A DNA stretch of 64,000 nt, from the NCBI GenBank assembly GCA_963565915.1, contig OY751486.1, positions 2,914,001-2,978,000 on the forward strand. Direction: 5' to 3'. How positions within the stretch are numbered: position 1 is the first letter of the stretch; every line of letters starts with the position of its first letter. The position numbers and the translations under genes were made by a program. The notes beneath the pieces are model-generated. The model was given only the letters and a program-made list of their open reading frames with translations, was not told where the DNA came from and did not search any database. Shown here piece after piece: positions 15,467-54,883 of this stretch. Source of the DNA: Entoloma clypeatum (Eukaryota > Basidiomycota > Agaricomycetes > Agaricales > Entolomataceae).

Positions 15467-16020
15467 TGTTACACTTTTTCACCCTCTTCCTCTGTGCCTT
15501 CACACGACCCCTCGACCCTCAATCTTTATCAAACCCTGTTTCACTTAACTCCGACAACCCTGGGACATGTGTCCCCCCTATCAGCGCTATGACTCACATT
15601 GACTCGGATGATTCCCCTTTTAGATACATTTTCACTTGTTATCTCTGACTCACAGCCTTGAGGCCTTATCTCTGACTCCTATGCCACAGCCTCCTTGAAA
15701 CATCTATCTAACCAATGGCCTATTTAGCTCCTATGCAGCACATACTTATTTATAGCCATAGGATAACATATATAAGACCTGTAACTTTAGAGTAGAGGTC
15801 CTCAGCTTGACCTAGGCATACAATGCTTACTTGTCTATTCTTCGAATGCTCTCCAACTAAGTGCCTTGCGAGGACTTAGCTCTGCCAGACCCCGAACCGA
15901 GTCATCCTTCTGAGGAACTCGCTGCTCTTGACCAAGTCGTCCTATTGAGAGACTTGTGTGGAAACAGTACAAACCCACGTGACTAGGACCTTGCACCAAT
16001 TGTAGGCTATTGCCGTAACA
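15467..16020 (+). repeat. 5' LTR of Gypsy B
   Basis: 554 bp, TGTTACACTTTT...GCCGTAACA. Holds two TGACTCA sites (15590, 15646), a TATA box TATATAAG (15769-15776) and, 34 nt after it, CAGCTTGACCT (15803-15813), complementary to the primer site at 16023. Boundaries come from TGTTA/TAACA ends and the 2-nt spacing to that site; no second LTR is available for comparison. Confidence 0.75.
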
Positions 16021-16022
16021 AA

Positions 16023-16033
16023 AGGTCAAGCTG
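16023..16033 (+). promoter_or_regulatory. Self-priming site of Gypsy B
   Basis: AGGTCAAGCTG, two bases after the LTR, is the exact complement of CAGCTTGACCT at 15803-15813 in the LTR. It matches no tRNA end I know. This is the layout of Tf1/sushi elements, whose mRNA 5' end primes its own reverse transcription. Confidence 0.75.
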
Positions 16034-16320
16034 ATCTACATCGTCAACCCACCACAGTTTTAGACGCAAAGATTCCTCCCCGACGATCAACCTTTGGACT
16101 CCCATCCGACTCAGAAGACAAATAAGAGTTCGTTGATGCACCTATCACACCACGACAACCGCCGACACCATACAGAAGAGTAACCTCCTCTTCTGTACCA
16201 GTCAACCCCACATCACCCTCTTACCCCTCCCTGAGATGAATCCCACCACCGCCAGCTGTTGCTGTTGCTGCACCCAGACCAAAGACCCCAGACACCCCAG
16301 TGAAATCAGCACCTGTAGAA

Positions 16321-16666
16321 ATGACTTCTCAGGCAAGAACCCCAGACAAAGAAATCACGATCAGCCTGCCAGTGATCTTCAATGGAGACAGAAGAAAAGT
16401 GTCAGAATTTTTGTTTGACATGAACTTATACTTGGAAATGAACAATGACATCTACAACTCTGACAAAAAGAAAATCCTCTTCACGGTCTCATACATGAAA
16501 GGAAAAACCGCCAGGCCATGGAAGGAGCCTTGGTACAGAGACATCACCACCGCCGGAGTACCCACCTACCCGAAGTACACGGACTTCATCGAGAAACTGA
16601 GGAAATCATTTTCCCCGGTTGACAAAGAAGGAGATGCGTTGACTATGATGAAAATGCAGAAGATCA
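16321..16666 (+). pseudogene. Gypsy B gag, part 1
   Basis: From ATG 16321 (MTSQARTPDKEITISLPVIF) to the insertion point of G. Typical Retrotrans_gag capsid: FNGDRRKVSEFLFDMNLYL, KGKTARPWKE and YTDFIEKLRKSF. The frame continues without a base lost at 41937. Confidence 0.85.
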
Positions 16667-17069
16667 TGTTGAACATTCAAGTATGGATGTATCGACAGTC
16701 AATCATGTGACTACAATCATGTGTTTTACCATGTGGCCTGACCACATGAAGTGTTCTAAACATAGAACAATCTAGACTCATTCTAGATCTCTGAGTCATC
16801 TCTGTGACTCAGAATGCTGCGCACCACAGCCTTGATGCTGTGTACCAAGATGTTCCATCATGTTCTAGCCAATAGTGTTACTAGCTCGTAGTTGGTCTGT
16901 GCGCATTCCCATACCTATAAGTACTGCATGTAAGTAGTGTAGTACAACAGAGCTAATACCAGTAGTTCTATCATCGCCCACTCTTCTTCAAACATCTCAA
17001 CCCCCTTCGCTTCAATGTGAGTATCATTAACCAGGCTCCCTCTGCGTCTGCTAGGCGTGCTGTTCAATA
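16667..17069 (+). repeat. 5' LTR of G
   Basis: 403 bp, TGTTGAAC...GTTCAATA. Contains TGAGTCA and TGACTCA (16792, 16805) and a TATAAG box near 16916. Confidence 0.93.
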
Positions 17070-17986
17070 GTTTATGGGCCCCGGATAGCCCCTAGGCTTG
17101 GGTTTATCCCTCTAAGTCCTAGAGTAGTTTGCATGCTCTAACAGAGCTGCTGCGACTACTATGCCTGTACGATACTAACCTGGTCCTTGACCAGTGAGCG
17201 ATGACATGCGCGTCTTTCAGACTGCCGCTGTCTGTCCTCTTTAAACTAGTAGCATAAGCTAGTTTAAGTTAGTTATCTGTTTTTGATACTTGGGGGTTCC
17301 AGACTAGTGAGCGCCGTTTTCGGCTGCACCTAGTTCTGATGTCCAAGGCTATTGAGCGCTCTGGAGTGCTGGATGCATCGCGCTCGTCGCATGTGATCGC
17401 CTCTGGTCTTAACAGCGTCAGATCTGCTGAGCTTGCTCACAGCTGCTGCCAGCGCTCTAGTCCTTGATTTAGACTTAGCGCCTTTATGGCCTATGTCTAT
17501 ATTTGGACAATTTTTGTATAGCTAGTGTGCTGTGCGCCTTATCGGCTGCCACCACTGCTTATGTGCAACATGTATGACAAACGCTTGCTGAGCTTGCTCG
17601 CAGCTGCAGTCTACATTTCACATGCTGTGACATGTCCTGTCGAATAGCACAAACCTTTCAAAGGCCAACACTATACGGTTATCTGTCGCTCCAAGTTTTT
17701 ACTTGTTTTGAGCATTGACATATAGATATACCTGGAAGTGAAGGCGATGACGCCAGCTTGAGAAGCAAGACTTTCTCGTGGTTATCAGCATTTGATCTAA
17801 TCAATGCCCTTAAAATGAGTTTATGGTTTTGTAAACCAAATCAAGTATATCTCAATGTGCTGACATTCGGACATCACGATTCTCAGGAACTTTCTGTTCC
17901 TTGAACCCTTTTTTGTCAATTGATCTTGATCCATTGCACCCTGTACCTGGTAGAAGTGCCCTTTTCGGGTTGCCTCAGGGACTTCC
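17070..17986 (+). other. Leader of G, non-coding
   Basis: Begins with the primer-binding site. No frame longer than about 60 codons. Two copies of a GCTGAGCTTGCTC(A/G)CAGCTGC hairpin-like word (about 17428, 17590) and several GCGCC..TTT..CGGCTGCC words (17311, 17531) also occur in the 3' non-coding part of G. Confidence 0.55.
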
Positions 17987-18447
17987 TGTTAAGAACTGAT
18001 CGACAAAATGTCGGAGCTATGTCGGACACGTCGGAAAGTCGGAGGGTCAAAGCGCGTGCAACGTAGGGGCAAGGACTTGGCTTCAACTTGTGTGTTGCGC
18101 CCTCGCTAATACGTTGGTGTCCTTATTTCGGAGGTCGGACTCAAGTTAAGAGTCGGAAAGAGGACGGGGGGTATGATGTCGAATCTAAGTTGATATTCAA
18201 ACTGAAGCTAATACACGATTCTACATAAGTTTAAATACTATGTCGGAGGACGTGTGGCTTCGTCGGAGTCGGATAACAAGTGGCTGTCGGAGATTCTTAA
18301 CATAAGTAAAATGGTCGGATGTAAGTAATGTACGTAGTAATGAGATTCATAACAGTAAGTATGCATAATAAGTATTAGTCAAAATGTTGGAGGTGTTGGA
18401 GGTGTTGGGATTGGTCGGAAATCGTCGGAATGGATCGGAATGTAACA
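17987..18447 (-). repeat. 3' LTR of H
   Basis: 461 bp, TGTTAAGAAC...GGAATGTAACA. I count 14 TCGGA on the plus strand and no TCCGA. It is 14 bp shorter than the other LTR owing to a tandem GGTCGGA difference. Confidence 0.92.
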
Positions 18448-18604
18448 GTATTTCCCCCTTAGGGCCGAACCCATGAGGCCTAAGGACCTAGGTGCGTGTG
18501 AACTGCGTCATGTGATGCATTGGTTGAAAATACTGTCTGAGTGGTTCTTTCTTCTTGTTCCCCCATTCTCTTTTCATTTTAAACTCTTCCGAAAAAACCT
18601 CAAT

Positions 18605-19560
18605 ATGTCGGCAACCGATTTTCAAAAGGAGATGGAGGCGCTGCAGGCTAAGCTCGCGGAGGTGGAGGCGAAAAACCGAGCAGTGGAGGAGGAGGCTGCG
18701 AGAAAGGCTGAGGAGGAGCGGAGAGCGGAGGAAGAGAGGGCTGCGGAGGCGGCGCGGTTAGCGGAGGAGATGCGGGTAGCAGAGGAGATGCGTCGGGTGT
18801 CAGAGCTGGCAGCTCAGAAGAGGGCCAATGAAGTGGCCACTGCGCAAGGCACATTGAGCAAGGGGTCGGGGGGGCTGCAGGCGGAGAAGAAGAAGAAGAA
18901 GGTGACGAAGAAAAGGAAGGTAGAGGAGGTGACGGCGACGGTCAGAGAGGGGTCGGGAGTCGGAGTCGGGGTCAGCGTCTGTGATAGGTGCAATGTGAAG
19001 GGCGTCGAATGCGAACACGATGAGTAAGTTCTTCTTTGGTTCGTCTCTTCTGTTTTAACCTTTTGTTTTAGGAATAAGTTGTCCTGCAAGGGTTGTGTCA
19101 AGGATAAGAAGAAGTGCGAGGTCGGAGCATTGGAGGGAAAGTCGGAGGTGAAGGAGGTGAAGAAAACGGTGAAGGTGATTAAGGGGAAGAAAAGGCATCG
19201 GAGATGCCGTCAGAGAGTGGGTCGGAGGACACCATCTTGGGTGTCCTCAAGATGATACTGGCGGAGACGAGGCAGGTGAGGCGACTGCTAACAGCAGTCG
19301 AAGGCTCGGTGAACACCGAGTATCAACCCAAGTCGCCGGAGGTGTCGGAGGAAGGGTCGGAGTAGGAGATGGATATAGCGGAGGAGACGCACGAGTTGAG
19401 ACTGGAGAAGAGGATCGCGAGAAGGATTAGGAAGGACCTTGTGAATAGGAAGAGGTTGGAGTTGCCGGAGCTGTCGGACGATTCTGACATGTCGATTTCA
19501 GAGCCATTGGAGAAGGTGGAGGAGGAGGGTCCGTCAAACAAGAAACAACATACTAAGTAG
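18605..19560 (+). pseudogene. Antisense accessory gene of H: coiled coil plus Zn2Cys6-like cluster
   Basis: Runs opposite to gag-pol, between the pol stop and the 3' LTR. Start ATG 18605 (MSATDFQKEMEALQAKLAEV). Residues about 5-75 are a Glu/Ala/Arg-rich coiled coil. A 48-nt intron (19024-19071, GTAAGT...TTTTAG) falls inside the cysteine cluster; spliced, it reads CDRCNVKGVEC then SCKGCVKDKKKC, spacing C-x2-C-x6-C-x8-C-x2-C-x6-C, within the fungal Zn(II)2Cys6 pattern. The C-terminal part (ILAETRQVRRLL, RIARRIRKDLVNRKRLELPE, acidic tail) is in another frame: a 1-nt shift near 19185 and a TAG at about 19363 break this copy, or a further intron was missed. Zn2Cys6 proteins of this family bind CGG triplets; nuclear function here is inference. 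Confidence 0.72.
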
Positions 19561-20259
19561 ATAGAATAGTACTTGTTTTTTCTTGTTTCAGAGTGATGTG
19601 AGCGGACCCGGTTTGTCGGGATAAGCGGAGTGAAAGTCAGAGACAAGCTCGGGGGCGTTTTCCAATTCATTGGCTGGTAGCCAAGAGAATTCTTCATCAG
19701 TGTTTTCATATTCTAACCAACGGACGAAATATAGTAGCTTGCAGCTACGTCGTCGGTCGATCTTTGAGTCGACTATTTCAGCGATCTCGTACTCAAGTTC
19801 TCCGTCAATGTCAATCAGAGGAGGCGGAGGTTGGGTCCGATTTGGAATGGTGTTCGGAGTTGCGGGTTCAAGCATGGAGACGTGGTAGACGGGGTGAACA
19901 CCGCGGAATGTGTCGGGGGGTCGGAGGGTAAAGGAGTGTGTGCCGGGTTGTGCAATGATCTTGTATGGTCCCAAGTACTTTTCTGAGAGTTTCTTGGATG
20001 GGCGTGTTGTGCAGAAGAACTGTGCTTTGACAAAAACCTGTTGTCCGACAGAAAATGTCGGAGGTGCGATCCGATTATTGTTGGAGGACTTCTGGTAACG
20101 TTGTTGAGCGTCGGAGATGGTGGCTTTCAGTTCTTGGTGAAGTTCGTCTAAGTCGGTCACGAAGGATCGGGCTCGGGAAGAGGCGAGGTCTTGTTCCGGG
20201 TGAACAGTAATGTTCGGATGGTAACCCTTGTTGGCAAAGAAGGGAGATATGCCAGTGGT

Positions 20260-20646
20260 TGTTACGGACTTACCGGTTTGTATGTTACGCACTTTTCCCT
20301 TGCATTGTACCTTTGTCATTTCTTTGACTCATCGGACCGCTTATTCATTTACCTTTACTCTACCATTCTCCTTTAGTATACTTCGCTCCCACGCTGACTC
20401 GCACTCCACAGTAGGGATTACTCAGTCCGCAGTCGTCTGACTCACTTCGCACTGCCTTCTGCAGTTACTGACTCATCCGCACTGCCTTCCGCAGCTACTG
20501 ACTCACTCGCTACAGCTCGTAGCCAGTACTATATAAACCCCATGTACCATAGCTACATTCCTTAGATTTAGCAATCACTTTGCTCTTCGCCTTTCCACTT
20601 CCTGCATATTCTGCCCAAACCTTGGAACGGTTTGTTAAGCATAACA
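20260..20646 (+). repeat. 5' LTR of A (Gypsy-A)
   Basis: 387 bp, TGTTACGGACTTAC...TTAAGCATAACA. Four exact TGACTCA motifs (20325, 20438, 20469, 20499), TATA box TATATAAA (20530-20537), predicted mRNA start AGATTTAGCAA (20564-20574). Confidence 0.95.
20530..20574 (+). promoter_or_regulatory. Core promoter and self-primer donor of Gypsy-A
   Basis: TATATAAA begins at 20530 and AGATTTAGCAA at 20564, 34 nt apart, which is where a transcript should start. That 11-mer is complementary to the primer-binding site at 20649-20659. Confidence 0.7.
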
Positions 20647-20648
20647 AG

Positions 20649-20659
20649 TTGCTAAATCT
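20649..20659 (+). promoter_or_regulatory. Self-priming site of Gypsy-A copy A
   Basis: TTGCTAAATCT, two bases (AG) after the LTR, exact complement of 20564-20574. The same 11-mer and spacing occur in A2 (11638), D (44971) and, on the minus strand, C (54871-54881). Confidence 0.8.
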
Positions 20660-20748
20660 CGTTAGGTTCGCCCAGAGCGAAGAGAGCAACTACCAGATGA
20701 GTCAAGACATTGTGCTTCTTTAAAGACTTCACCAGTAACCCATTCAGC

Positions 20749-21435
20749 ATGCCAGAAGCCCGACAGGAGGAGCTAAGTCCTCAAGACAGTATCGATTTTA
20801 CACTCATCCAGCAGTACATCAAATCGGAGATCTGTCACATCCTACAGCAGGTGCTTGACGAAGAACTAGACAATGACGAGCATTGCCCCCACGGCGAGAT
20901 AGCAGAGAGCATCCATCTTGCTTGGCAACACCAGGTCGCGTGTTACAACACCCAACAGAATGAACTCGAAAGCTTTCGCATTCAAGAAGGACCTCAGACA
21001 GGTTGGATCACAGAGATCAGAGAGTTTATCGGTGTCCAGACAACCGTTATCGGAAGATTGATTAGAACACTCACATTGAGATGTCCCAGAGCCACATCAT
21101 CATGTCTTACTCAAAGCAGCAGATCTACGCCCACTTCACCACTGAAGAGCAACAGACCGAGTACAACCGTTGGGCATGGAATGAGAGACTTGATCCCTTC
21201 TCGAGACCAACAGACGCGCAGGAACAGAGATTCCTTAGAGATTTACAGAGGAAATACCCCGAACGTTTTGCCACCGATTCCGCCGATGAGTCCCCTGACG
21301 AATTTACTTTTGACTCCGCGCAGTCAGATATTGAACAGACACCTAGAACAGGGACTCATTTTCAATCCTTACCTGTATCCCGAACCCCATCTTCATCCCA
21401 ACAACCCGACTCCTCTTCTCCTCTGCAGACTCTAA
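20749..21435 (+). CDS. Gypsy-A upstream ORF0 (N-terminal gag frame?)
   Basis: 228 codons from ATG 20749 (MPEARQEELSPQDSIDFTLI). Helical first half (IQQYIKSEICHILQQVLDEE, EIAESIHLAWQHQ), basic, Ser/Thr/Pro-rich second half. Its last 355 nt overlap gag in the -1 frame. The same frame is open in copy C (54781-54095) and nearly so in D, where the ATG is ACG. It may be the amino-terminal part of Gag joined by -1 frameshifting or splicing, or a separate product. No family recognised. The low-complexity C-terminal half may be only the shadow of gag. Confidence 0.5.
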   Translation: MPEARQEELSPQDSIDFTLIQQYIKSEICHILQQVLDEELDNDEHCPHGEIAESIHLAWQHQVACYNTQQNELESFRIQEGPQTGWITEIREFIGVQTTVIGRLIRTLTLRCPRATSSCLTQSSRSTPTSPLKSNRPSTTVGHGMRDLIPSRDQQTRRNRDSLEIYRGNTPNVLPPIPPMSPLTNLLLTPRSQILNRHLEQGLIFNPYLYPEPHLHPNNPTPLLLCRL

Positions 21436-22304
21436 ACATGGCAGAAGCTCCGGCTGTACAAACAATGGATACATCCAAGATCATCAAGGATCCTGGGATG
21501 TTCAAGGACAGATACACCTTTGACGAGTGGTGGAAAGCCACCAAACTATACATCAGGTTCCAAAAGAGCCTCACAGACGATCAGAAGATTCTTGCGGTGT
21601 TATCCCGCATGATGGAAGGGTCCGGCAGACACTGGGCCAGTAACAAGTTAGACGCTCTTACCGCTGACAATGAGAACATCACCTGGCTAGGTTTTTCCGA
21701 TGATATCACCACATGATTCTCCATCGCCAACAAGTCCGTCGCTGCCAAAGCGAGACTCGAAGTCCTGAAACAAGAGAAACGCACTGTTGATGAGTTCTTG
21801 GATGAATTTGAAGAACTCTTGGGACTGTCAAACCTTGGCGAAGAAACTGGGAAATACATCCTAGAGAAAAACGTCAACCGCAGAATCTCTGAACAAGTGG
21901 CTAGCGATGGCAAGACGTACACCGATTACGCAAAGGAGATCCAAAACAAGGGACAACAGATGGAAGGACACGCACTGGTCATCCGAGGTGGCGGCGACAT
22001 GCGCACCGGATCGGGTACCACTTATGGTGGTCAGGGCAAAGCCATGGAGATCGACAAAGCAGGAGTAGCCCGTTGCTACAACTGTCAACGCTTCGGTCAT
22101 CTGGCTAAAGACTGTAGCGCTCCAAAGAAGAAAGATGGTCACAAGTGTTTCAATTGTGACCAAGAAGGCCATATCGCGCACAACTGCCGCAAGCCGAAGA
22201 AGAACTCCGGAAGGGTTAGGAAGGTGTCCGAAGAAGATGCTGAGAATGATGAAACCACAATCTTAGAAGCCGACGAGAAGGATTTTCCCGAAGGGTCCGA
22301 TTAA
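21081..22304 (+). pseudogene. Gag of Gypsy-A copy A
   Basis: Conserved ATG at 21102 (MSYSKQQIYAHFTTEEQQTE) with another at 21081. Capsid core FDEWWKATKLYIRFQKSL, HWASNKLDAL, then a TGA at 21714-21716 in place of Arg/Gln of other copies, after which the frame continues unbroken: DEFEELLGLSNLGEETGKYI and two CCHC knuckles, CYNCQRFGHLAKDC and CFNCDQEGHIAHNC. Stop TAA at 22304; pol begins 51 nt downstream in another frame. Confidence 0.87.
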
Positions 22305-22354
22305 ACGACGCTAAGTCACGGCCCTTATCTATTAAACGGACTTGCTTGCCTTGT

Positions 22355-24986
22355 ATGACTGCAGACAATAGAACCTATGTCATCCCTGCCAAGCGAGCCG
22401 CTGCGTCGACTAAGATTGTGAAGGGAGATAAACCTCCGAAAAAACGAGAAATCAGGCTGTTAGCGCAGCTCAAAACACGACGAGGACCAAAGGTTATCCG
22501 ACCTGAGGTTGACAGCGGATGTGAACGCACATGCATTCATCCCAGAATAGTACGGGAACAGAACCTCCCCACGCGAGGAATACCACCCATAGCAATTCTA
22601 AATGCGGATGGATCACCAAATCGACAACAGAAAGCGAGCCAACTTGCCGAAGTCAAGCTGGATTTGGGAGCACATCAGGAAACCATGGAAGCAATGGTAC
22701 TAGACATTGGGAGGACGGACATGCTCTTGGGACATGACTGGTTGGTACACCACAACCCCACAATCAATTGGACAACCAGCGCGGTAACATTTAAGAGCAC
22801 CCACATCAAAAAAGGAAGTTCAGAAGTTCCTTGGATTTGCTAACTTCTATCGAGGATTTATTGAAGGGTACTCAAACATCGCAAAGCCTCTCACCGTGCT
22901 CACAGGTGGTATGGCATTTACTTGGGGACCAACAGAGCAGCAAGCCTTTGAAGGTCTCATATGGGCAATTACATCGGCACCGGTCTTGGCATTACCAAAA
23001 CCAGAGGGACAGTTCAGGGTTGAAACCGATGCATCGGGCTATGCAATTGGAGCAGTACTCTCTCAGAAGCAAGACGACAAATGGCACCCCATTGCGTTCT
23101 TGTCGCGGACCATGTCCGCGGCCGAACAGAATTACGAGATATACGGCAAGGAACTTCTGGCAGTCGTGGAAGCGTTGAAAGATTGGAGACACTATCTGCT
23201 CAAAGCCAAGGAACGTTTTGAAATCTTGACCGATCACAAGAACCTGGAATACTTCCGTCGTCCTCAGGACCTAAATCAACGACAGCGACGCTGGAAAATG
23301 AAGTTACAGGACTATGACTTCGAATTACGGCATGTGCCCGGCAAGACCAATGCGAAAGCGGACATCCTGTCACGCTTACCCTGGTATGAAGCGGAACTCG
23401 AACCACAGGACAGCGACCAAATGCTCAAGGAGGGACTATTCTTGAAACGATTGGAATCAGAAGATGTGGTACAAATGGAGATGTTCACGGAGGAACAATT
23501 CTTTGAAGGGGGTGAAACATCTGATTCCATCAGAATCGGAAACGTCACGACCATCGAAAATCCGTGGATTGCACGCATCAAGGGTTCAAACCGCATGGAG
23601 ACAGAAGTAGCCCAGGGTCTAAAGAAGAATCCTCATTGGTATCAACAGGAAAACGGCATCACATATGCAGGCGAACGAGTCTATGTTCCGCCAGATCCAC
23701 AATTGCGACAAGAATTGATGTTTGAATCACACGATGCACCAGTGGCTGGACATCCAGGACAGTACCGGACACATGAACTCCTCACTCACACCTACTGGTG
23801 GCCTACCATACTGCATGATGTGAAGAAGTATGTGAAGGGTTGTGACACTTGTCAATGCAACAAGATTAACCGACAAAAGCGACATGCTCCGCTACATCCC
23901 CATGCAGCACCAAGTCACCCATGGGAAGACATAGGAATCGACGTCGTGGGACCGATACCAGAATCTGATGGAAAAAACGCAATTCTGGTCATCACGGATA
24001 GACATTCAAAGATGCTTCACCTCATTCCGACAACTGTGGAACTATCGGCTGAAGGATTAGCCAAGATCTATCGGGATCAGATATGGAAGCTTCATGGGAT
24101 CCCCAAGAAGATCATCAGCGATAGGGGACCACAGTTCACTGTGAAGTTCATGGAGATACTCTGCCGCATGTTAGGGATCAAGAGGAACCTGTCCACCGCG
24201 TATCACCCACAGACTGATGGACAGGCCGAGCGATCGCATCAGGAAACAGAAGCATTCTTACAAAACTTTGTCAACCATCTACAGGATGATTGGGCGGAAT
24301 GGATCGCAATCGCAGAGTTCCAGTACAATGACAAAGAACACCAGGCAACGAAGCACACCCCATTCTACCTCAACTACGGTTTACATCCGTGGAAGGGAGA
24401 GCTCGTGTTAGAAGATACCAATCCGGCTGCCAATGACTTCTTGAAAAAACTCAAACAGGCACAAGAAGAAGCCAATGCTGCACTGAAACAAGCACAGGAT
24501 CAGATGAAGAAGACAGTTGACACACGGCGAAGTCCGTCTCGGGACTACCGCATCGGAGACAAGGTGTGGCTGGAAGGAACTAACATCAGGACCGATCGAC
24601 CCTCAAAGAAACTTGATGCGCTCCGACATGGACCATTCAAAGTCCTAGAGAAGAAAGGAGCTAGCACGTACCTTCTTGATCTTCCGAAGACTTGGAAGAT
24701 GATTCACCCTGTGTTCAACGAGACCCTGTTGTCACCATATGAAACTCCGAAGTACGCCATCCAGAAAAAGAAACCAGCCCCTGATCCGATCATCGTTGAA
24801 GGACGAGAAGAGTACCATGTGTCTATGATCCTAGACTCTCGAAAGTTCTGCGGAAAGATCCAGTACCTCGTCCAGTGGGAAGGATATGGCCCAGAAGAGA
24901 ACACATGGGAACCGCGAGCTAATGTTCAGAATGCTCAAGATTTGATCCGTGATTTCCATCGGCAGAACCCGTCGCGTCCACAATAA
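22355..24986 (+). pseudogene. Pol of Gypsy-A copy A, lacking reverse transcriptase
   Basis: ATG 22355 (MTADNRTYVIPAKRA). Aspartic protease with VDSGCERTCIHP and MLLGHDWLVHHNP. At about 22795 the frame jumps from WTTSAVTF to [12 protein letters not shown] sequence of the RT/RNase H connection, so the RT core with YMDD is absent and the frame shifts. Then RNase H (ETDASGYAIGAVLSQKQDDK, EILTDHKNLEYF), integrase zinc finger (HDAPVAGHPGQYRTHELL...CDTCQ), DDE core (IDVVGPIPE, IISDRGPQF, QAERSHQETEAF) and a chromodomain (YLVQWEGYGPEENTWEP). The 22896-24986 part is fully open (696 codons). Confidence 0.92.
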
Positions 24987-25109
24987 AAGACACCCGTTGA
25001 AATCAGCCAACAACATCGACCTCATCAGTCAAAAACCCACCGAGTTCTCCGCTCTGTCTTCAATATAGCTACTCCATTCTTCCTCTATCTCTCCAACATC
25101 CTCCGCACC

Positions 25110-25472
25110 ATGTTCACCGCCACCACCACATCCACTGAAACCAACCCCGCCATCACTGCCCACATGGGTGAAGCCCTCTCCATGAGAGACCAGATTCACG
25201 CGCTAGAAGCCTCGCTCGCCGACATCCTGCATCGACAGATGCACATCCGCCTCCATTCTTTATCCGACCTCCCCGTCACACCCACCCCCGAAGAGAAACA
25301 AATCCTCGGGAACTACACCCGTACGCTGGTCGTTGAAAACCGGCGCATCCGACTAGCCGTCCGGAGTCTTGAGCTCGCCATCGCCATCAACGAAGAGCTA
25401 ATAGACGATTGGAGCCTCAAGGAGAATGGCTCCTGGACAAACAACGACAATGCCGGAGGATGGGGACAATGA
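25110..25472 (+). CDS. Gypsy-A accessory ORF3 (copy A)
   Basis: 120 aa from ATG 25110 (MFTATTTSTETNPAITAHMG) between the pol stop and the 3' LTR, an unusual place for a gene in a chromovirus. Predicted all-helical: DQIHALEASLADILHRQMHI, EEKQILGNYTRTLVVENRRI, LAVRSLELAIAINEELIDDW, ending in an Asn/Gly-rich GGWGQ tail. No transmembrane segment or signal, so not an envelope. It is present in all four Gypsy-A copies that retain this region. Comparing 74 core codons with copy D, I count 31 synonymous and 17 replacement changes, which means the protein has been under selection. Function unknown; a Gag-interacting or regulatory role is possible. Confidence 0.75.
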   Translation: MFTATTTSTETNPAITAHMGEALSMRDQIHALEASLADILHRQMHIRLHSLSDLPVTPTPEEKQILGNYTRTLVVENRRIRLAVRSLELAIAINEELIDDWSLKENGSWTNNDNAGGWGQ

Positions 25473-25506
25473 CTCTGTGAGGACACAGAGCTTGAGGAGG
25501 GGAACA

Positions 25507-25892
25507 TGTTACGGACTTACCGGTTTGTATGTTATGCACTTTTCCCTTGCATTGTATCTTCATCATTTCTTTGACTCATCGGACCGCTTATTCATTTACC
25601 TTTACTCTACCATTCTCCTTTAGTATACTTCGCTCCCGCGCTGACTCGCACTCCGCAGTAGGGATTACTCAGTCCGCAGTCGTCTGACTCACTTCGCCTG
25701 CCTTCCGCAGTTACTGACTCATCCACACTGCCTTCCGCAGCTACTGACTCACTCGCTACCGCTCGTAGCCAGTACTATATAAACCCCATGTACCATAGCT
25801 ACATTCCTTAGATTTAGCAATCACTTTGCTCTTCGCCTTTCCACTTCCTGCATATTCTGCCCGAACCTTGGAACGGTTTGTTAAGCATAACA
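25507..25892 (+). repeat. 3' LTR of A (Gypsy-A)
   Basis: 386 bp, preceded by polypurine tract TTGAGGAGGGGAACA and followed by TSD GTGGT. Confidence 0.95.
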
Positions 25893-30153: not shown

Positions 30154-30186
30154 AACTGGAATTTGAAATATGGATAAGCGAGTGGC

Positions 30187-41931: not shown

Positions 41932-41936
41932 GATCA

Positions 41937-42447: not shown

Positions 42448-42481
42448 TGTTCCCCTCTCCAAGCTCTGTGTCCTCACAGAG

Positions 42482-42853
42482 TCACTGTCCCCATCCCTCA
42501 TTGTTGCCAGGATTGGACCAGTTCGGACTTTCCTTGAGGCTCCAATCATATATCAACTCCTCGTTGATGGCTACGGCGAGTTCAAGGCCCTTGATGGCCA
42601 GCCGAATACGTCGAGTTTCAATGACGAGGATGCTGGTGTAATTCCCAAGAATTTGTTTCTCTTTGGGAGTCAGGGCGACGGGGAGATTGGACAACGAATG
42701 AAGTCGGATATTCATCTGGTGATAAAGGAGGTCAGTGAGGGAAGTTTCGAGGGCATGGATTTGGTCTCTCATGGAGGGCGCTTCGTTCATAAGGGCGGCG
42801 ATGGCAGGGTTGATGTCGGTGGTGGAGGTGGAGGTGACGATGGTGTTTGACAT
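42482..42853 (-). CDS. Gypsy-A accessory ORF3 (copy C)
   Basis: Intact 123-aa frame from ATG 42853 (MSNTIVTSTSTTDINPAIAA). Same helical protein as in A and D: DQIHALETSLTDLLYHQMNI, EKQILGNYTSILVIETRRIR, LELAVAINEELIYDWSLKES and a GWGQ end. Lies directly upstream of the polypurine tract. Its integrity contrasts with the broken gag and pol of the same copy. Confidence 0.75.
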   Translation of the reverse strand: MSNTIVTSTSTTDINPAIAALMNEAPSMRDQIHALETSLTDLLYHQMNIRLHSLSNLPVALTPKEKQILGNYTSILVIETRRIRLAIKGLELAVAINEELIYDWSLKESPNWSNPGNNEGWGQ

Positions 42854-44598: not shown

Positions 44599-44968
44599 TG
44601 TTACGGACTAACGACTACGGACGTATACACTTACCTTTTCACTTTTACTCATCGGCCCCCGCTTACACATATCGTATTATACTTTATTCCCTTTAGTATA
44701 CTTCGCTCCCGCGCTGACTCGCTTTCCGCAGCTGTCTGACTCATTCCGCAGTCAGCTTACTCATTAGTGCATAGCCTTCCGCAGTCGCCTTACTCATGCG
44801 CACTGCCTTCCACAGTTACTGACTCATTCGCTACCGCTCATAGTCAGTACTATATAAACCTCATGTACCATAGCTACATTCCTTAGATTTAGCAATCACA
44901 TTGCTCTTCGCCTTTCCATCTTCCTGCATACTCTGCCCGAACCTTGGAACGGTTTGTTACGCATAACA
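44599..44968 (+). repeat. 5' LTR of D (Gypsy-A)
   Basis: 370 bp, TGTTACGGACTAACG...TTACGCATAACA. TATATAAA at 44851 and AGATTTAGCAA at 44885; primer site TTGCTAAATCT at 44971-44981. Confidence 0.95.
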
Positions 44969-45426
44969 AGTTGCTAAATCTCGTTAGGTTCGCCCAGAGC
45001 GAAGAGAGCAACTACCAGACGAGTCAAGACGTCGCGCTCCTTTGAAGACTTCACCAGTAACCCATTCAGCACGCCAGAAGCCCAACAGGAGGAGCTAAGT
45101 CCTCGAGACAGTATCGATTTTACGCTTATCCAGCAGTACATCGAATCGGAGATCCGTCGCATCCTACAGCAGGTGCTTGACGAAGAACTAGACAACGACG
45201 AGCATCGCCCCCACGGCGAGATAGCAGAGAGCATCCATCTTGCTCGGCAACACCAGATCGCGCGTTACAACGCCCGACAGAACGAACTCGAAAGCTTTCG
45301 CGTTCAAGAAGGACCTCAGACAGGTCGGATCACAGAGATCAGAGAGTTTATCGGTGTCCAGACAACCGTTATCAGAAGATTGATTAGGACGCTCACATTG
45401 AGACGTCCCAGAGCCACATCATCACG

Positions 45427-46629
45427 TCCTACTCGAAGCAGCAGATCTACGCCCACTTCACCATCGAAGAACAACAAACCGAGTATAACCGTTGGGCACA
45501 AAACGAGAGACTTGACCCCTTCTCGCGACCAACAGACGCGCAGGAACAGAGATTCCTTAGAGATCTACAGAGGAAATACCCCGAACGTTTTGCCACCGAT
45601 TCCGCCGACGAGTCCCCTGACGAATTTACTTTTGACTCCGCGCAGTCAGATACCGAACAGACGCCTAGAACAGGGACTGATTTTCAACCCCTACCTGTAT
45701 CCCGAACCCCATCTTCATCCCAACAACCCGACTCCTCTTCTCCTCCGCAGACTCTAAACATGGCAGAAGCTCCGGCTGTACAAACAATGGATACATCCAA
45801 GATCATCAAAGATCCTGGGATGTTCAAAGACAGACACACCTTCGATGAGTGGTGGAAAGCCACCAAATTATACATCAGGTTCCAGAAGGGCCTGTCCGAC
45901 GATCAGAAGATTCTTGCGGTGTTATCCTGCATGATGGAAGGGTCCGGTAAACACTGGGCCAGCAACAAGTTAGACGACCTTGCCACCGATGGCGAGAACA
46001 TCACCTGGTTAGGATTCTCAGACGACATCGCTACGTGATTCTCTATTGCCAGCAAGTCGGCAGCGGCCAAGGCGAAACTCGAAGTCCTGAAACAGGAAAA
46101 ACGCACCATCGACGAATTCTTGGACGAATTCGAAGAGATCTTGAAGCTGTCAAACCTTGGCGAAGAAACCGGGAAATACATCCTGGAAAAGAACGTCAAC
46201 TGCAGAATTTCTGAACAAGTGGCTAGCGATGGCAAGACGTACACTGATTACGCAAAGGAGATCCGAAACAAGGGACGACAGATGGAGGGACATGCATTAG
46301 TCATCCGAGGGGGTGGCGACACACGCACCGGATCGGGCACCACTTATGGTGGTCAAGGCAAAGCCATGGAGATCGATAAAGCAGGAGTAGCCCGTTGCTA
46401 CAACTGTCAGCGCTTTGGTCACCTTGCCAAAGACTGCAAAGCCCCAAAGAAGAAAGATGGTCGTAAGTGTTTCAACTGCGACCAAGAAGGACATATCGCG
46501 CGCAACTGCCGCAAGCCAAAGAAGAACTCTGGAAAGATTAGGAAGGTGTCTGATGGAGATACCGATGATGATGATGAAACCATCACCATAGAGACCGATG
46601 AGAAGGATTTTCCCGAAGGGTCCGATTAA
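45427..46629 (+). pseudogene. Gag of Gypsy-A copy D
   Basis: The conserved start ATG is ACG in this copy. Capsid FDEWWKATKLYIRFQKGL, HWASNKLDDLA; TGA at 46036-46038, the same codon as in copy A; then DEFEEILKLSNLGEETGKYI and knuckles CYNCQRFGHLAKDC and CFNCDQEGHIARNC. ORF0 is also open upstream (45173-45757) in the overlapping frame but has lost its ATG. Confidence 0.87.
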
Positions 46630-46679
46630 ATGACGCTAAGTCGCGACCCTTATTCATTAAACAAACTCGCTTGCCTGGT

Positions 46680-49600
46680 GCAGCTACAGACAATATAACT
46701 TATGTTATCCCTGCAAAGCGAGCCGTTGCGTCAACTAAGATTGTCAAGGGAGATAAACCTCCGAAACGACGAGAGATCAAGCTGCAAGCTCAGATCAAAA
46801 CACGACGAGGACCAAAGGCCATTCGACCCGAGGTTGATAGCGGATGTGAACGCACATGTATCCATCCCAGAATAGTACGTGAACAGAACCTTCCCACACA
46901 TGGAATAAAGCCCATATCAATCCTAAATGCGGATGGATCGCCAAACCGACAACAGAAAGCAGAAAAACTTGCCGAAGTCAAGCTGGACTTAGGAACACAC
47001 CAGGAAACCATGGAAGCAATGGTATTGGACATTGGGAGAACGGACATGCTTTTGGGACATGACTGGTTGGTGCACCACAACCCCACAATCAATTGGACGA
47101 CCGGCGCTGTAACATTCAACCGATGCCCGCCAACATGTCAAACCAAACACTCGGATTTCAGGGTTAACCTTAATGGTCACAAACATTGGGTTCGCATGGT
47201 GGAAATATGAGACAAGGACGCGCCCAAGAAATCGGATCAGAATTGGAAGCCCGGAGACCCCATATTGGAAGCAGTTACTCCCACACCACCTCCCACAACC
47301 AAACGACCCTCATACGTTGAACGTTTTGCCCATCTCTTTGAAAAAGAAAACTTCGACAAGATCCCAAAGGAAAGAGAATGGGACCACGGCATCGAACTTA
47401 CACCGGACGCACCAAAGGAGCTAGGAGGAAACACATACCCTATGACCCAAAAGGAGCAAGAAGAACTGGATGAATTCATCGATGAAGGCCTGGCAACCGG
47501 AAAGATCCGACCGTCCAAATCCCCTTATGCATCACCCTGCTTCTTCATTAACAAGAAAGACGGTTCCAAACGATTGGTACAGGATTATCGCACGGTCAAT
47601 AAATTCATGGTTAAGGACAAATTCCCACTCCCACGCATCAACGACCTCTTGGATGTATTGAAGGACGCAGTCTACTTCAACAAAATGGACATCATGTGGG
47701 GATACAATAACGTGCGGATCAAGAAGGGTGACGAATGGAAAGCCGCCTTCCTGACCAGCCGAGGATTGTTTGAACCATTGGTCATGTTTTTCGGTCTTTG
47801 CAACTCCCCGGGAATGTTCTCTCGAATGATGGCTAGTCTATTCCGGGATCAGATCCGTCGGCGCATCTGTGTGATTTACATGGATGACATAGTGGTTATT
47901 GGTAAAACCAAGGAAGAACTCGCCCGGAACACCGAAGAGATCTTGCAGATTCTGTCAGATAATGACCTGTTCCTAAAGGAGAAGAAGTGTCTTTGGGAAG
48001 TAACGAAATGCCCCATATTGGGATATGTTGTTGGAGAAGGACGTGTTGAGATGGAAACTGAAAAGGTGGACACAATCCGGAACTGGCGAGTACCCACATC
48101 AAAAAAGGAAGTCCAGAAGTTCCTGGGATTTGCCAATTTTTATCGACGCTTTATTGAAGGATACTCAAACATCGCAAAACCACTCACGACACTTACGGGA
48201 AATACAGCATTCACGTGGGGACCAGCGGCGCAAGAAGCATTTGAAGGTCTCATACGGGCAATCACGACGGCACCAGTCTTGGCATTGCCTAAACCGGACG
48301 GACAGTTCAGGGTCGAAACCGATGCATCGGGTTATGCGATTGGAGCGGTACTTTCACAGAAACAAAACGACAAGTGGCATCCTATCATGTTCTTGTCGCG
48401 GACCATGTCCGCAGCCGAACAGAATTACGAGATATATGACAAGGAACTCTTGGCAGTCATGGAAGCACTGAAGGACTGGCGACATTATTTACTTGAAGCC
48501 AAGGAACGTTTCGAGATCTTAACCGATCACAAAAACCTGGAGTATTTCCGGCATCCTCAGGACCTAAACCAACGACAGAGGCGCTGGAAGATGAAGTTAC
48601 AAGACTATGACTTCGAATTGCGACATGTACCTGGGAAGACAAACGCAAAAGCAGACATCCTGTCACGTTTACCCTGGTATGAGATGGAACTCAAGCCGCA
48701 GGACAGCGACCAAATGCTCAAGGAGGGGCTATTTTTGAAACGATTGGAATCAGAAGATGTGATACAAATGGAGATGTTCACGGAGGAACAATTCTTTAAA
48801 GGGGGTGAAACATCTGATTCCATCAAAATTGGAAACATCACAACCATCGAAAACCCATGGATCGCACGCATCAAGGCCTCGAATCGCATGGAGACAGAAG
48901 TAGCCCAGGGTCTGAAGAAGAATCCTCACTGGTACCAGCAGGAAAATGGCATCACCTACGCAGGAGAACAAGTCTATGTTCCACCAGACCCACAACTGCG
49001 CCAAGAACTGATGTTTGAAGCGCACGACGCACCAGTGGCAGGACACCCAGGACAATATCGAACGCATGAACTCCTCACTCGCACCTACTGGTGGCCCACC
49101 ATCCTACATGATGTAAAGAAGTATGTGAAAGGTTGTGACACCTGTCAACGTAACAAGATCAGCCGCCAAAGGAGACACGCCCCTCTACACCCTAACGCCG
49201 CGCCAAGTCAACCATGGGAAGACATAGGGATTGACGTCGTGGGACCGATACCAGAATCTGATGGGAAAAACGCAATTCTGGTCATCACAGACAGACATTC
49301 AAAGATGCTTCATCTCATCCCAACAACCGTGGAACTATCGGCTGAAGGATTAGCCAAGATCTATCGGGACCAGATATGGAAGCTTCATGGGATCCCCAAG
49401 AAGATCATCAGCGATAGGGGACCACAGTTCGCTGCGAAGTTCATGGAGATACTCTGCCGCATGTTGGGGATCAAGAGGAACCTGTCCACCGCGTACCACC
49501 CACAGACTGATGGACAGGCCGAGCGATCGCATCAGGAAACAGAAGCATTCTTACGAAACTTTGTCAACCATCTACAGGATGATTGGGCGGAATGGATCGC

Positions 49601-50278
49601 AATCGCAGAGTTCCAGTACAATGACAAAGAGCACCAGGCAACAAGCACACCCCAGTCTACCTCAACTACGGTTTACATCTGTGGAAGGGAGAACTCGTGT
49701 TAGAGGATACCAATCCGGCTGCCAACGACTTCTTGAAAAAACTCAAACAGGCACGAGAAGAAGCCAATGCTGCGCTGAAACAAGCACAGGATCAGATGAA
49801 GAAGACAGTTGACACACAGCGAAGTCCGTCTCGGGACTACCGCATCGGAGACAAGGTGTGGCTGGAAGGAACTAACATCAGGACCGATCGACCCTCAAAG
49901 AAACTTGATGCGCTCCGACATGGACCATTCAAAGTCCTAGAGAAGAAAGGAGCTAGCACGTACCTTCTTGATCTTCCGAAGACTTGGAAGATGATTCACC
50001 CTGTGTTCAATGAGACCCTGTTGTCACCATATGAAACTCCGAAGTACGCCATCCAGAAAAAGAAACCAGCCCCTGATCCGATCATCGTTGAAGGACGAGA
50101 AGAGTACCATGTGTCTATGATCCTAGACTCTCGAAAGTTCTGCGGAAAGATCCAGTACCTCGTCCAGTGGGAAGGATATGGCCCAGAAGAGAACACATGG
50201 GAACCGCGAGCTAATGTTCAGAACGCTCAAGATTTGATCCGTGATTTCCATCGGCAGAACCCGTCGCGTCCACGATAA
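46680..50278 (+). pseudogene. Pol of Gypsy-A copy D
   Basis: Protease EVDSGCERTCIHP; TGA at 47208-47210 (expected CGA/CGT Arg); then an 812-codon open frame with RT ([51 protein letters not shown]), RNase H, integrase zinc finger and DDE core (IISDRGPQF, QAERSHQETEAF). A 1-bp deletion at about 49640 shifts into 49697-50278, which carries the integrase C-terminus and chromodomain YLVQWEGYGPEENTWEP. RT catalytic residues are intact. Confidence 0.92.
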
Positions 50279-50402
50279 AAGACACCCGTTGAAATCAGCC
50301 AACAACATCGACCTCATCAGTCAAAAACCCACCGAGTTCCCCGCTCCGTCTTCAAATATAGCTACTCCATTCTTCCTCTATCTCTCCAACATCCTCCGCA
50401 CC

Positions 50403-50771
50403 ATGTCCAACATCACCGCTGCCTCCACCGATGCTTCCGATATCAACCCCACCATCACCACCCTCATCGGCGAAGCACTCTCCATGCGCGACCAGATCCA
50501 TGTGCTCGAAACCTCTGTCGCCGACATCCTCCACCGGCAGATGCATATCCGCCTTCATACCCTCTCCGATTTACCAACCACCCCCACCGCTGAGGAGAAG
50601 CTCATCCTCAAAAACTATACCAACACCCTTGCTGTCGAGAATCAACGCCTTCGCCTCGCCGTTCGAGGTTTAGAGTTTGCCACGGCGGTAAACGATGAAC
50701 TGATAAAGGATTGGGGTAACCGAGTTGACCCTGCCTGGGCCGATCCAAATGGCAACGATGGATGGGAGTAG
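50403..50771 (+). CDS. Gypsy-A accessory ORF3 (copy D)
   Basis: 122 aa from ATG 50403 (MSNITAASTDASDINPTITT). The leader up to the ATG is almost identical to copy A, but from the ATG on the two diverge sharply, with most changes synonymous. Core DQIHVLETSVADILHRQMHI, EEKLILKNYTNTLAVENQRL. Ends in NGNDGWE rather than GWGQ. Confidence 0.75.
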   Translation: MSNITAASTDASDINPTITTLIGEALSMRDQIHVLETSVADILHRQMHIRLHTLSDLPTTPTAEEKLILKNYTNTLAVENQRLRLAVRGLEFATAVNDELIKDWGNRVDPAWADPNGNDGWE

Positions 50772-50808
50772 GTAGTCTGTGAGGACACAGACCTTGAGGA
50801 GGGGAACA

Positions 50809-51178
50809 TGTTACGGACTAACGACTACGGACGTATACGCTTACCTTTTCACTTTTACTCATCGGCCCCCGCTTACACATATCGTATTATACTTTATTCC
50901 CTTTAGTATACTTCGCTCCCGCGCTGACTCGCTTTCCGCAGCTGTCTGACTCATTCCGCAGTCAGCTTACTCATTAGTGCATAGCCTTCCGCAGTCGCCT
51001 TACTCATGCGCACTGCCTTCCGCAGTTACTGACTCATTCGCTACCGCTCATAGTCAGTACTATATAAACCTCATGTACCATAGCTACATTCCTTAGATTT
51101 AGCAATCACATTGCTCTTCGCCTTTCCATCTTCCTGCATACTCTGCCCGAACCTTGGAACGGTTTGTTACGCATAACA
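50809..51178 (+). repeat. 3' LTR of D (Gypsy-A)
   Basis: 370 bp after polypurine tract TTGAGGAGGGGAACA. Confidence 0.95.
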
Positions 51179-53220
51179 GTAAGCGTGACAGGATGTCCGC
51201 TTTTGCATTGGTCTTGCCGGGCACATGCCATAGTTCAAAGTCATAGTCTTGTAACTTCATTTTCCAGCGTCGCTGTCGTTGATTCAGGTCCTGAGGACGA
51301 CGGAAATATTCCAGGTTCTTGTGATCAGTCAAGATTTCGAAACGTTCCCTGGCTTCGAGCAGATAGTGTCTCCAATCTTTTAATGCTTCCACAACCGCCA
51401 GGAGTTCCTTGTCATATATCTCGTAATTCTGTTCAGCCGCAGACATGGTCCGCGACAAGAACACGATGGGGTGCCATTTGTCATCTTGCTTCTGAGAGAG
51501 TACTGCTCCAATTGCATAGCCCGATGCATCGGTTTCAACCCTGAACTGTCCCTCTGGTTTCGGTAATGCCAAGACTGGTGCCAATGTAATTGCCCATATG
51601 AGACCTTCAAAAGCTTGCTGCTCTGTTGGTCCCCAAGTAAATGCCGTACCGCCTGTGAGCACGGTGAGAGGCTTTGCGATGTTTGAGTACCCTTCAATAA
51701 ATCCTCAATAGAAGTTAGCAAATCCAAGGAACTTCTGAACTTCCTTTTTTGATGTGGGTGCTCGCCAGTTTCGAATTGTATCCACCTTCTCAGTTTCCAT
51801 CTCAACACATCCCTCACCAACCACATATCCCAATATAGGACATTTCGTTACTTCCCATAAACACTTCTTCTCCTTTAGGAACAAATCATTGTCCGATAGG
51901 ATCTGTAGGATTTCTTTGGTGTTTTGCGCGAGTTCTTCCTTGGTTTTACCGATAACCACGATGTCATTCATGTAGATCACGCAGATACGTCGGCAGATCT
52001 GGTCCCGGAATAGACTAGCCATCATTCGAGAGAACATTCCCGGGGAGTTGCAAAGACCGAAAAACATGACCAATGGTTCAAACAATCCTCGACTGGTGAG
52101 GAAGGCAGCTTTCCATTCATCGCCCTCCTTAATCCGGATGTTGTTATAGCCCCACATGATGTCCATTTTATTGAAGTAGACCGCATCTTTTAGTACGTCC
52201 AAGAGATCGGATATTCATGGGAGTGGGAACTTGTCTTTGACCGTGAATTTATTGACCATGCGGTAATCTTGACCAATCGTTTGGAGCCATCCTTCTTGTT
52301 GATGAAGAAGCAAGGGGAGGCATAAGGGGATTTGGACGGGCGGATCTTTCCAGTTGCTAGACCCTCGACAATGAATGCGTCCAATTCCTCTTGTTCCTTT
52401 TGCGTCATAGGATATGTATTTCCCCCTAGTTCCTTTGGTGTGTCCAGTGTAAGTTCGATACCATGGTCCCATTCCCTCTCCTTTGAGATCTTATCAAAGT
52501 TCTCTTTCTCAAAGAGATGAGCAAATCGTTCAACATATGAGGGTCGTTTGGTTGTGGGAGATGGTGTGGGAGTGACAGCATCTAAAATAGGGTCTCCAGG
52601 TTTCCATTTCTGATCCGACTTTTTGGGTGCATCTTTGTCACGCACCTCAACCATGGGAACCCGGTGTTTGCGACCATTAAGGTTAATCCTGAAATCTGAG
52701 TGTTTGGTTTGACACATTGTTGGGCACCGGTTAAATGTTACCGCGCTGGTTGTCCAATTGATTGTGGGGTTGTGGTGTACCAACCAGTCATGTCCCAAGA
52801 GCATGTCCGTTCTCCCAATGTCCAGTACCATTGCTTCCATGGTTTCCTGATGTGCTCCCAAATCCAGTTTGACTTCGGCAAGTTGGCTCACTTTCTGTTG
52901 TCGATTTGGTGATCCATCCGCATTTAGAATTGCTATGGGCGGTATTCCTCACGTGGGGAGGTTCTGTTCGCGTACTATTCTGGGATGGATGCATGTGCAT
53001 TCACATCCGCTGTCGACCTCAGGTCGGATAATCTTTGGTCCTCGTCGTGTTTTGAGCTGAGCTAAGAGCCTGATTTCTCGTCTTTTTGGAGGTTTATCTC
53101 CCTTCACAATCTTAGTCGACACAGTGGCTCGCTTGGCGGGGATGACATAGGTTCTATTGTCTGCAGTCATACAAGGCAAGCAAGTCCGTTTAATAGATAA
53201 GGGTCGCGACTTAGCATCGT

Positions 53221-54428
53221 TTAATCGGACCCTTCGGGAAAATCCTTCTCGTCGGCTTCTAAGATTGTGGTTTCATCATTCTCAGCATCTTCCTCGGACA
53301 CCTTCCTAACCCTTCCAGAGTTCTTCTTCGGCTTGCGGCAGTTGCGCGCGATATGGCCTTCTTGGTCACAGTTGAAACACTTGCGACCATCTTTCTTCTT
53401 TGGAGTGCTACAGTCTTTAGATAGATGACTGAAGCATTGACAGTTGTAGCAACGGGCTACTCCTGCTTTGTCAATCTCCATGGCCTTGCCCTGACCACCA
53501 TAAGTGGTACCTGATCCGGTGCGCATGTCGCCACCACCTCGGATGACCAGTGCGTGTCCTTCCATCTGTCGTCCCTTGTTTCGGATCTCCTTTGCGTAAT
53601 CGGTGTACGTCTTGCCATCGCTAGCCACTTGTTCAGAGATTCTGCAGTTGACGTTCTTCTCTAGGATGTATTTCCCAGTTTCTTCACCAAGGTTTGACAG
53701 TTTCAAGAGTTCTTCGAATTCATCCAAGAATTCATCAACGATGCGTTTCTCTTGTTTCAGGACTTCAAGTCTTGCTTTGGCAGCGACCGACTTGTTGACA
53801 ATGGAGAATTGTGTGGCGATATCATCGGAGAAACCTAGCCAGGTGATGTTCTCATTGTCAACAGCAAGAGCGTCTAACTTGTTACTGGCCCAGTGTCTGC
53901 CGGACCCTTCCATCATGCGGGATAACACCGCAAGAATCTTCTGATCGTCTGTGAGGCTCTTTTGGAACCTGATGTATAGTTTGGTGGCTTTCCACCACTC
54001 GTCAAAGGTGTATCTGTCCTTGAACATCCCAGGATCCTTGATGATCTTGGATGTACAGTATCCATTGTTTGTACAGCCGGAGCTTCTGCCATGTCTAGAG
54101 TCTGCAGAGGAGAAGAGGGGTCGGGTTGTTGGGATGAAGATGGGGTTCGGGATACAGGTAAGGATTGAAAATGAGTCCCTGTTCTAGGCGTCTGTTCAAT
54201 ATCTGACTGTGCGGAGTCAAAAGTAAATTCGTCAGGGGACTCGTCAGCGGAATTGGTGGCAAAACGTTCAGGGTATTTCCTCTGTAAATCTCTAAGGAAT
54301 CTCTGTTCCTGTGCATCTGTTGGTCGCATGAAGGGATCAAGTCTCTCATTCCATGCCCAACGGTTGTACTCGGTCTGTTGCTCTTCAGTGGTGAAGTGGG
54401 CGTAGATCTGCTGCTTTGAGTAAGACAT
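53221..54428 (-). pseudogene. Gag of Gypsy-A copy C
   Basis: ATG 54428 (MSYSKQQIYAHFTTEEQQTE). A 5-bp insertion (CAGTA after TA, 54055-54060) shifts the frame; downstream the frame is fully open to the stop at 53221, with Gln at the codon that is TGA in A and D, and knuckles CYNCQCFSHLSKDC and CFNCDQEGHIARNC. ORF0 is open upstream (ATG 54781 to 54095). Confidence 0.87.
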
Positions 54429-54883
54429 GATGATGTGGCTCTGGGACGTCTCAATGTGAGTGTTCTAATCAATCTTCCGATAACGGTTGTCTGGACACCG
54501 ATAAACTCTCTGATCTCTGTGATCCAACCTGTCTGAGGTCCTTCTTGAATGCGAAAGCTTTCGAGTTCATTCTGTTGGGCGTTGTAACACGCGATCTGGT
54601 GTTGCCAAGCAAGATGGATGCTCTCTGCTATCTCGCCGTGGGGGCGATGCTCGTCATTGTCTAGTTCTTCGTCAAGCACCTGCTGTAGGATGTGACAGAT
54701 CTCCGATTTGATGTACTGCTGGATGAGTGTAAAATTGATACTGTCTCGAGGACTTAGCTCCTCCTGTCGGGCTTCTGGCATGCTGAATGGGTTACTGGTG
54801 AAGTCTTCAAAGAAGCACAATGTCTTGACTCATCTGGTAGTTGCTCTCTTCGCTCTGGGCGAACCTAACGAGATTTAGCAACT

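Follow-up and report, generated by a model that had tools for sequence, protein, structure and literature searches.

Matched primer and primer-binding sequences point to Tf1-type self-priming in chromodomain Gypsy elements of Entoloma clypeatum

How do the Gypsy long terminal repeat (LTR) retrotransposons of the basidiomycete Entoloma clypeatum begin minus-strand DNA synthesis? Priming by a transfer RNA (tRNA) is usual for LTR elements. In a 64,000-nucleotide stretch of the E. clypeatum genome (the window; assembly GCA_963565915.1, contig OY751486.1, positions 2,914,001 to 2,978,000 of the forward strand), several Gypsy families were originally predicted to prime themselves, each with an 11-nt segment that lies 34 nt after the TATA box and is complementary to 11 nt starting two bases beyond the LTR (LTR+2). 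The sequence tests that could be run support this reading, and it is very probable that these chromodomain Gypsy elements use their own RNA as primer for the minus strand, in the manner of the fission yeast element Tf1. We observed the complementarity itself, its position relative to the TATA box and the LTR end, its covariation between families, and its presence both in elements bearing gag and pol and in non-autonomous elements. From these features we infer where the RNA begins, how it is cleaved, and that it primes.

The layout can be read directly in the window, whose coordinates are used throughout for its features. In family A (plus strand), the TATA box TATATAA (20530-20536) is followed 34 nt further on by the predicted self-primer AGATTTAGCAA (20564-20574), which is the exact reverse complement of the putative primer-binding site (PBS) TTGCTAAATCT at LTR+2 (20649-20659). 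The 5' LTR (20260-20646) is 97.2% identical to the 3' LTR (25507-25892), and the target-site duplication is GTGGT. In A2, also on the plus strand, the TATA box is at 11519, the primer at 11553-11563 and the PBS at 11638-11648. Element C (44599-51178, plus strand; LTRs 44599-44968 and 50809-51178, 99.5% identical; duplication GTAAG) has its TATA box at 44851, primer at 44885-44895 and PBS at 44971-44981. It is inserted within, and splits, element D (42047-55284, minus strand; 5' LTR 54884-55284, 3' LTR 42047-42447, 96.3% identical; duplication GTGTG), whose TATA box, primer and PBS are at 54999, 54956-54966 and 54871-54881. Similarly, A is inserted within element H (17987-30674, minus strand; 5' LTR 30200-30674, 3' LTR 17987-18447, 89.7% identical; duplication GGAAG), in which the TATA box is at 30473, the primer at 30429-30439 and the PBS at 30187-30197. 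The LTR ends of A, C, D and H are fixed independently by their paired LTRs and 5-bp target duplications; the LTR termini are TGTTAC...TAACA, and the PBS starts after a 2-nt spacer that is AG in A, C and D, GT in H and AA in B. A TATA spacing of 33 nt, originally assigned to an element lettered C, does exist, but it belongs to the minus-strand element with the LTR at 54884-55284, which is D here, whereas the element at 44599, C here, has 34; the lettering may differ.

Family B (plus strand) carries a 10-nt primer, AGCTTGACCT, at 15804-15813, and the PBS AGGTCAAGCT at 16023-16032, again at LTR+2, with a TATA box at 15769. BLAST found no second LTR of B in the window, and the LTR end (TAACA, 16020) is taken from sequence alone. 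The complementary pair foreseen for B is there, but the proposed 11-mer was one base too long, since the pair comprises 10 nt and the TATA spacing is 35 rather than 34 nt. Family I is present as a solo LTR (38343-38722, plus strand) with a TATA box at 38607 and the primer AGATCTAGCAA at 38641-38651, and as a second LTR copy on the minus strand (30731-31110; primer 30802-30812); the two have 380 bp in common, at 97.4% identity. The positions first reported (A 20530/20564/20649; B 15769/15803/16023; H 30473/30439/30197, minus strand; I 38607/38641) are exact, and in A (with A2, C and D), B and H the segment after the TATA box is the perfect complement of the bases from LTR+2. We searched the window for any 10-mer that follows a TATA-like site at 31-36 nt and has its complement 60-600 nt further on, immediately behind ACA+NN; this gave 6 sites, compared with 0 in 100 dinucleotide shuffles. 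Dropping the ACA+NN requirement raised the count to 7, where the shuffles averaged 0.12 and never exceeded 2.

Eight primer/PBS pairs were resolved in the genome (60.1 Mb, 20 contigs). The primers are AGATTTAGCAA in A, AGATCTAGCAA in I, AGTTTGAATAT in H, AGTTCAAATAT in F2, AGTTTTGAATAT in F3, AGTTTCGAGCT in F4, AGAACTTTCT in F5 and AGCTTGACCT in B, and every one starts with AG after a pyrimidine. As the original prediction held, pairing is kept while the letters of the primer differ, through substitutions and one insertion that are matched in both arms. A single T-A to C-G exchange, present in both arms, separates A from I; two pairs are exchanged between H and F2, and an inserted base, again in both arms, distinguishes H and F3. 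Locus L067 has one extra base, which is matched on both sides. Because these changes are compensatory and occur between related pairs, the covariation backs the mechanism proposed. Perfect junctions were counted in 10/10 copies of A, 13/14 of H, 2/2 of F2, 1/1 of F3, 2/2 of F4, 7/8 of F5 and 21/21 of B, the exceptions in H and F5 being one copy each without a primer. The A tally takes in a copy with a lengthened spacer (L102) and one on the other strand (L113), and family I was counted separately. Since the families were found through complementarity, the tally is descriptive and no independent test.

The distance to the TATA box is also constrained, lying at 31-36 nt in seven of the eight families. 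It is 34 nt in six copies of A and 33 in four, 34 in I, 34 in eleven copies of H and 31 in one, 33 and 34 in F2, 34 in F3, 32 in five copies of F5 and 33 in two, and 35 in twenty copies of B and 36 in one. F5 was scored as TATA-less in the genome scan described below and has TATTTAT at 32-33 nt. The idea of an identical architecture, 11 nt at 34 nt, therefore holds as a layout and was too strict in its numbers, given primers of 10-12 nt depending on the family, the range of TATA spacings, and one family, F4, without a canonical TATA box. In F4 (L065, L066) the LTR measures only about 176 bp, which is very short, and primer and PBS are matched.

The solo LTR of family I had been used to predict a lost priming site, and this forecast came true outside the window. 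A search with the family I leader listed 11 loci, all of which were scored: ten have the exact TTGCTAGATCT at LTR+2, and the eleventh has TTGCTCGATCT, with one mismatch. Both arms are perfect in nine of the 11, and one of the ten loci with an exact PBS has lost the part of the LTR that bears the primer. An LTR search listed 40 places, all examined, of which three are 5' LTRs followed by TA and TTGCTAGATCT and three are the matching 3' LTRs; the exact site does not follow the other 34, among them L080, where TTGCTAG stands right after a damaged LTR end. LTRs of full copies are about 454-458 bp. In three copies (L086, L089 and L090) the LTRs are 99.4-100% identical, the target-site duplications (AAAGG, TGGAT and GGCTG) are perfect, and a purine run precedes the 3' LTR; their measured lengths are 1892-2461 bp, that of L086 including some flank. 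Neither of the two open reading frames of at least 200 amino acids in L089, the one copy scanned, gave a Pfam match. Judged by these features, family I is a recent, short non-autonomous LTR element of the TRIM/LARD type (terminal-repeat retrotransposon in miniature or large retrotransposon derivative) with a putative primer of its own. The internal part of L089 contains a 423-codon open frame (575-1846) rich in Ser/His repeats and without a Pfam match.

The same layout recurs in Gypsy families that had not been seen when the prediction was made. Matches to gag were used as anchors (150 places scored), and the upstream sequence of 40 of them was taken, hand-picked for diversity and not at random. 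A perfect pair of at least 10 nt with its downstream arm at ACA+2 was found in 29 of the 40 starts; the controls gave 18 in 2000 shuffles and, on the antisense strands, 2 in 40. With a canonical TATA box at 30-38 nt added, the figures were 18/40 starts against 0/2000 shuffles, with the same 2/40 antisense. One antisense match, L113, comes from an A element that runs in the opposite direction. The pattern AGNNNNAGCAA-N65-85-TTGCTNNNNCT occurs at 880 places in the genome, compared with 5 for the same pattern read backwards, and among the first 50 loci listed, on one contig, the four free bases are equal in both arms in 49 and one base off in one. These loci are copies of one family, and therefore the count shows abundance rather than independent origin.

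How might such a pair work? Set by the TATA box, transcription would begin some 34 nt past it, at an initiator-like Y-A(+1)-G, and the leading 10-12 nt of the transcript would pair with the PBS two bases beyond the LTR. RNase H would cut where the pairing ends, and synthesis from the released 3' end would run through the 2-nt spacer and then U5. With the primer removed from the RNA, new LTRs would have to draw those bases from the RNA 3' end. The PBS could be rewritten from the primer, so that mutations would reach both arms without double mutants.

Several observations weigh against self-priming as set out here, and they are considered together with the alternatives on which they bear. There was no match in 11 of the 40 gag-anchored starts, and one of the 29 matches (L106), at a distance of 500 and without a TATA box, is chance-like; if it is chance, L106 joins the unexplained starts. 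The second antisense match, in L110, is a 12-nt pair at ACA+2 (115-126/390-401) with a TATA-like site upstream; it is unexplained and indicates that stray matches occur in the scan, and its source may be chance, or a ninth family in antisense orientation. Among the misses, L074 and L116 have an intact PBS and a primer that is altered or gone, L102 has an A/C-type junction at about 740-760 (sense) with both arms intact and a spacer of 17 nt instead of 2, L113 has the A pair on the opposite strand, and L058 and L114 show likeness to upstream parts alone. The remaining five (L063, L071, L101, L110 and L112) have no likeness to any junction type compared, and may be copies that have been truncated, or else Gypsy families that prime at a different site.

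Other such points concern the start of the RNA. F4 and one H copy (L115) have no canonical TATA box, and in 12 of the 13 H copies with both arms, pairing with the PBS flank extends to the base preceding A(+1). The state of F4 and the additional pair in H would suit a transcript that starts further upstream, with self-priming by a segment excised on both sides. To this we give a small chance, as the TATA box keeps its distance in the other seven families and pairing halts at A(+1) in both F2 copies. In B, for which the window copy and 20 further copies out of 40 places listed were read, A(+1) is preceded by C in 6 copies and by T in 15, against a constant PBS and ten invariant bases of AGCTTGACCT. 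The preceding base varies and the PBS does not follow; therefore the B pair ends at A, which fits a predicted mRNA start at Y-A(+1)-G.

Could a host tRNA or tRNA fragment prime these elements, with the complementarity to the LTR being secondary? Most LTR elements use tRNAs, and our tRNA set, obtained with ARAGORN, is incomplete: it comprises 54 loci and 144 strings, 116 of them distinct and many of them one gene's sequence lengthened at the 3' end, it covers 26 anticodon labels, and its Met tRNAs come only from the small contig C20. None of the 116 distinct strings of this incomplete set fully matches any PBS. The longest tRNA run per PBS is 6-9 nt of 10-12, close to the shuffled-PBS means of 6.5-7.0, whereas the LTR match is perfect. 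A point in favor of a tRNA is the F2 PBS, whose 9-nt run with one tRNA string equals the maximum of its 200 shuffles. None of the eight PBSs starts with TGG, the complement of the tRNA 3' CCA; CCA was appended to every tRNA string, and a separate 3'-end test is therefore weak. Furthermore, the PBS changes along with the LTR between families. The better-matching tRNA that the original prediction had named as its potential undoing is absent from this partial set, in which tRNA priming is unsupported, and we regard a tRNA primer as extremely improbable.

The Copia elements of the same genome present a different picture of the PBS. The sequence GGTTATGGGCCCCGG is found in all four Copia starts taken; in the two for which the LTR was covered, it adjoins the LTR and the longest self-complementary run is 5. 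Pattern searches of the genome for the initiator tRNA gave nothing. GGTTATGGGCCCCGG may resemble the initiator-tRNA site of Drosophila copia, which would make this tRNA a candidate, unproved primer of the Copia elements. The window itself contains a 404-bp pair (16667-17070 and 41529-41932), 99% identical, that starts with TGTTGAACA and ends with TGTTCAATAG; the first copy is followed by TTTATGGGCCCCGG and sits downstream of the B gag. These stretches look like Copia-type LTRs. Elsewhere in the window are a 1389-amino acid open frame with Exo_endo_phos_2 and RVT_1 domains, belonging to an element like a long interspersed nuclear element (33257-37426, minus strand), and an imperfect tandem repeat (4383-4727) whose units start 60, 60 and 110 nt apart.

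The pair could also be an RNA structure that serves packaging, dimerisation or translation control, with priming by another route. Leaders of such elements are usually structured, and unconstrained RNAalifold analysis of leaders starting at the primer joined primer and PBS in a single stem for both the A/C/D/I group and the H/F2/F3 group (six sequences each), so that each consensus fold has its leader closed by this pair. The exchanged pairs, UA to CG and GC to AU, appear on both sides of the consensus stems. Less favorable to self-priming are the whole-fold covariation terms, slight for A/C/D/I (-0.77) and unfavorable for H/F2/F3 (+0.81), and the A leader folded as a single sequence, which did not adopt the primer:PBS stem. 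The stability of the A leader is ordinary (z -1.39; 22 of 200 shuffles fold equally well). Signs of the two further duplexes of the Tf1 "pretzel", judged by the second of them, stand out in A, C and I alone: of 300 shuffles, that duplex was reached by 12 in A, 9 in C and 13 in I, compared with 23 in F5, 49 in F2, 58 in D, 69 in F4, 214 in H, 216 in B and 270 in F3. A structural role alone gives no account of why one arm is found at an initiator-like YAG about 34 nt past the TATA box in seven of the eight families, nor of why the other is at LTR+2, where a primer must sit, in all eight. No alternative primer site was found in the families examined, and we consider it very unlikely that the pair is structural only.

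To what group do the self-priming candidates belong? C encodes RVT_1, RNase H, H2C2 and rve domains; A encodes RNase H, H2C2 and rve, in a scanned frame that begins after the reverse transcriptase; and H encodes gag, RVT_1, RNase H and H2C2, with rve under the curated cut-off. The chromodomain (PF00385) is present in A (1.7e-14) and H (1.7e-7), in both with SH3_Tf2-1, and there is none in the C frame scanned. Among named proteins, those most similar to C come from Agaricus bisporus (54%), Trametes and Armillaria. By domains and PBS architecture, the elements are best read as chromodomain Ty3/gypsy elements of the Tf1/sushi chromovirus type. In the literature cited here, self-priming is common to Tf1/sushi chromoviruses, the closest described group, and the basidiomycete elements marY1 and Tcn1 are in the Tf1/sushi tree (PMC10085805). 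Tf1 and Tf2 of Schizosaccharomyces pombe, with an 11-nt primer at the mRNA 5' end, a PBS just past the 5' LTR and a chromodomain integrase (PMC7175516, PMC10085805), resemble the layout predicted for the E. clypeatum elements; the Tf1 primer is cut between bases 11 and 12 (PMC7175516). Unlike Tf1/Tf2, with Tf1 compared by description, E. clypeatum has several primer sequences of 10-12 nt, depending on the family, and the pretzel side duplexes of Tf1 are seen only in part. D has a gag zinc knuckle, unlike the fission yeast elements as described in PMC10085805. Tj1 of S. japonicus similarly has a PBS complementary to the mRNA 5' end, and is mobile in S. pombe (PMC4600332), but it is a single family from an ascomycete. 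Closer to home, Tcn1 of Cryptococcus neoformans, also compared by description, is a basidiomycete Gypsy element for which self-priming has been proposed (PMC7175516), and marY1 of Tricholoma matsutake, placed with Tf1/sushi (PMC10085805), is alike by group. Most plant Tcn1-clade elements are predicted to self-prime (PMC6317226), in a spikemoss Tcn1 element no site for either a tRNA or self-priming was seen (PMC2864245), and Tcn2-5 perhaps use novel priming (PMC7175516).

The mechanism and the group were already known; what is added, with good support, is a set of new members, a rule that extends across families, and a non-autonomous case. A single genome yields eight natural primer/PBS pairs, some of them close relatives with compensatory changes. 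A solo LTR can be turned into a prediction of its priming site, a rule borne out once, in family I, and a short non-autonomous family keeps its own primer. It is possible, though we hold this only tentatively and think it rather doubtful, that chromodomain Gypsy elements in this genome as a rule prime themselves and that the primer drifts freely as reverse transcriptase copies it into the new PBS. If so, the primer/PBS pair could be viewed as a self-correcting barcode, of which satellites such as family I would hold a private version, and a TATA box, 34 nt and YAG would predict the lost PBS of any solo LTR.

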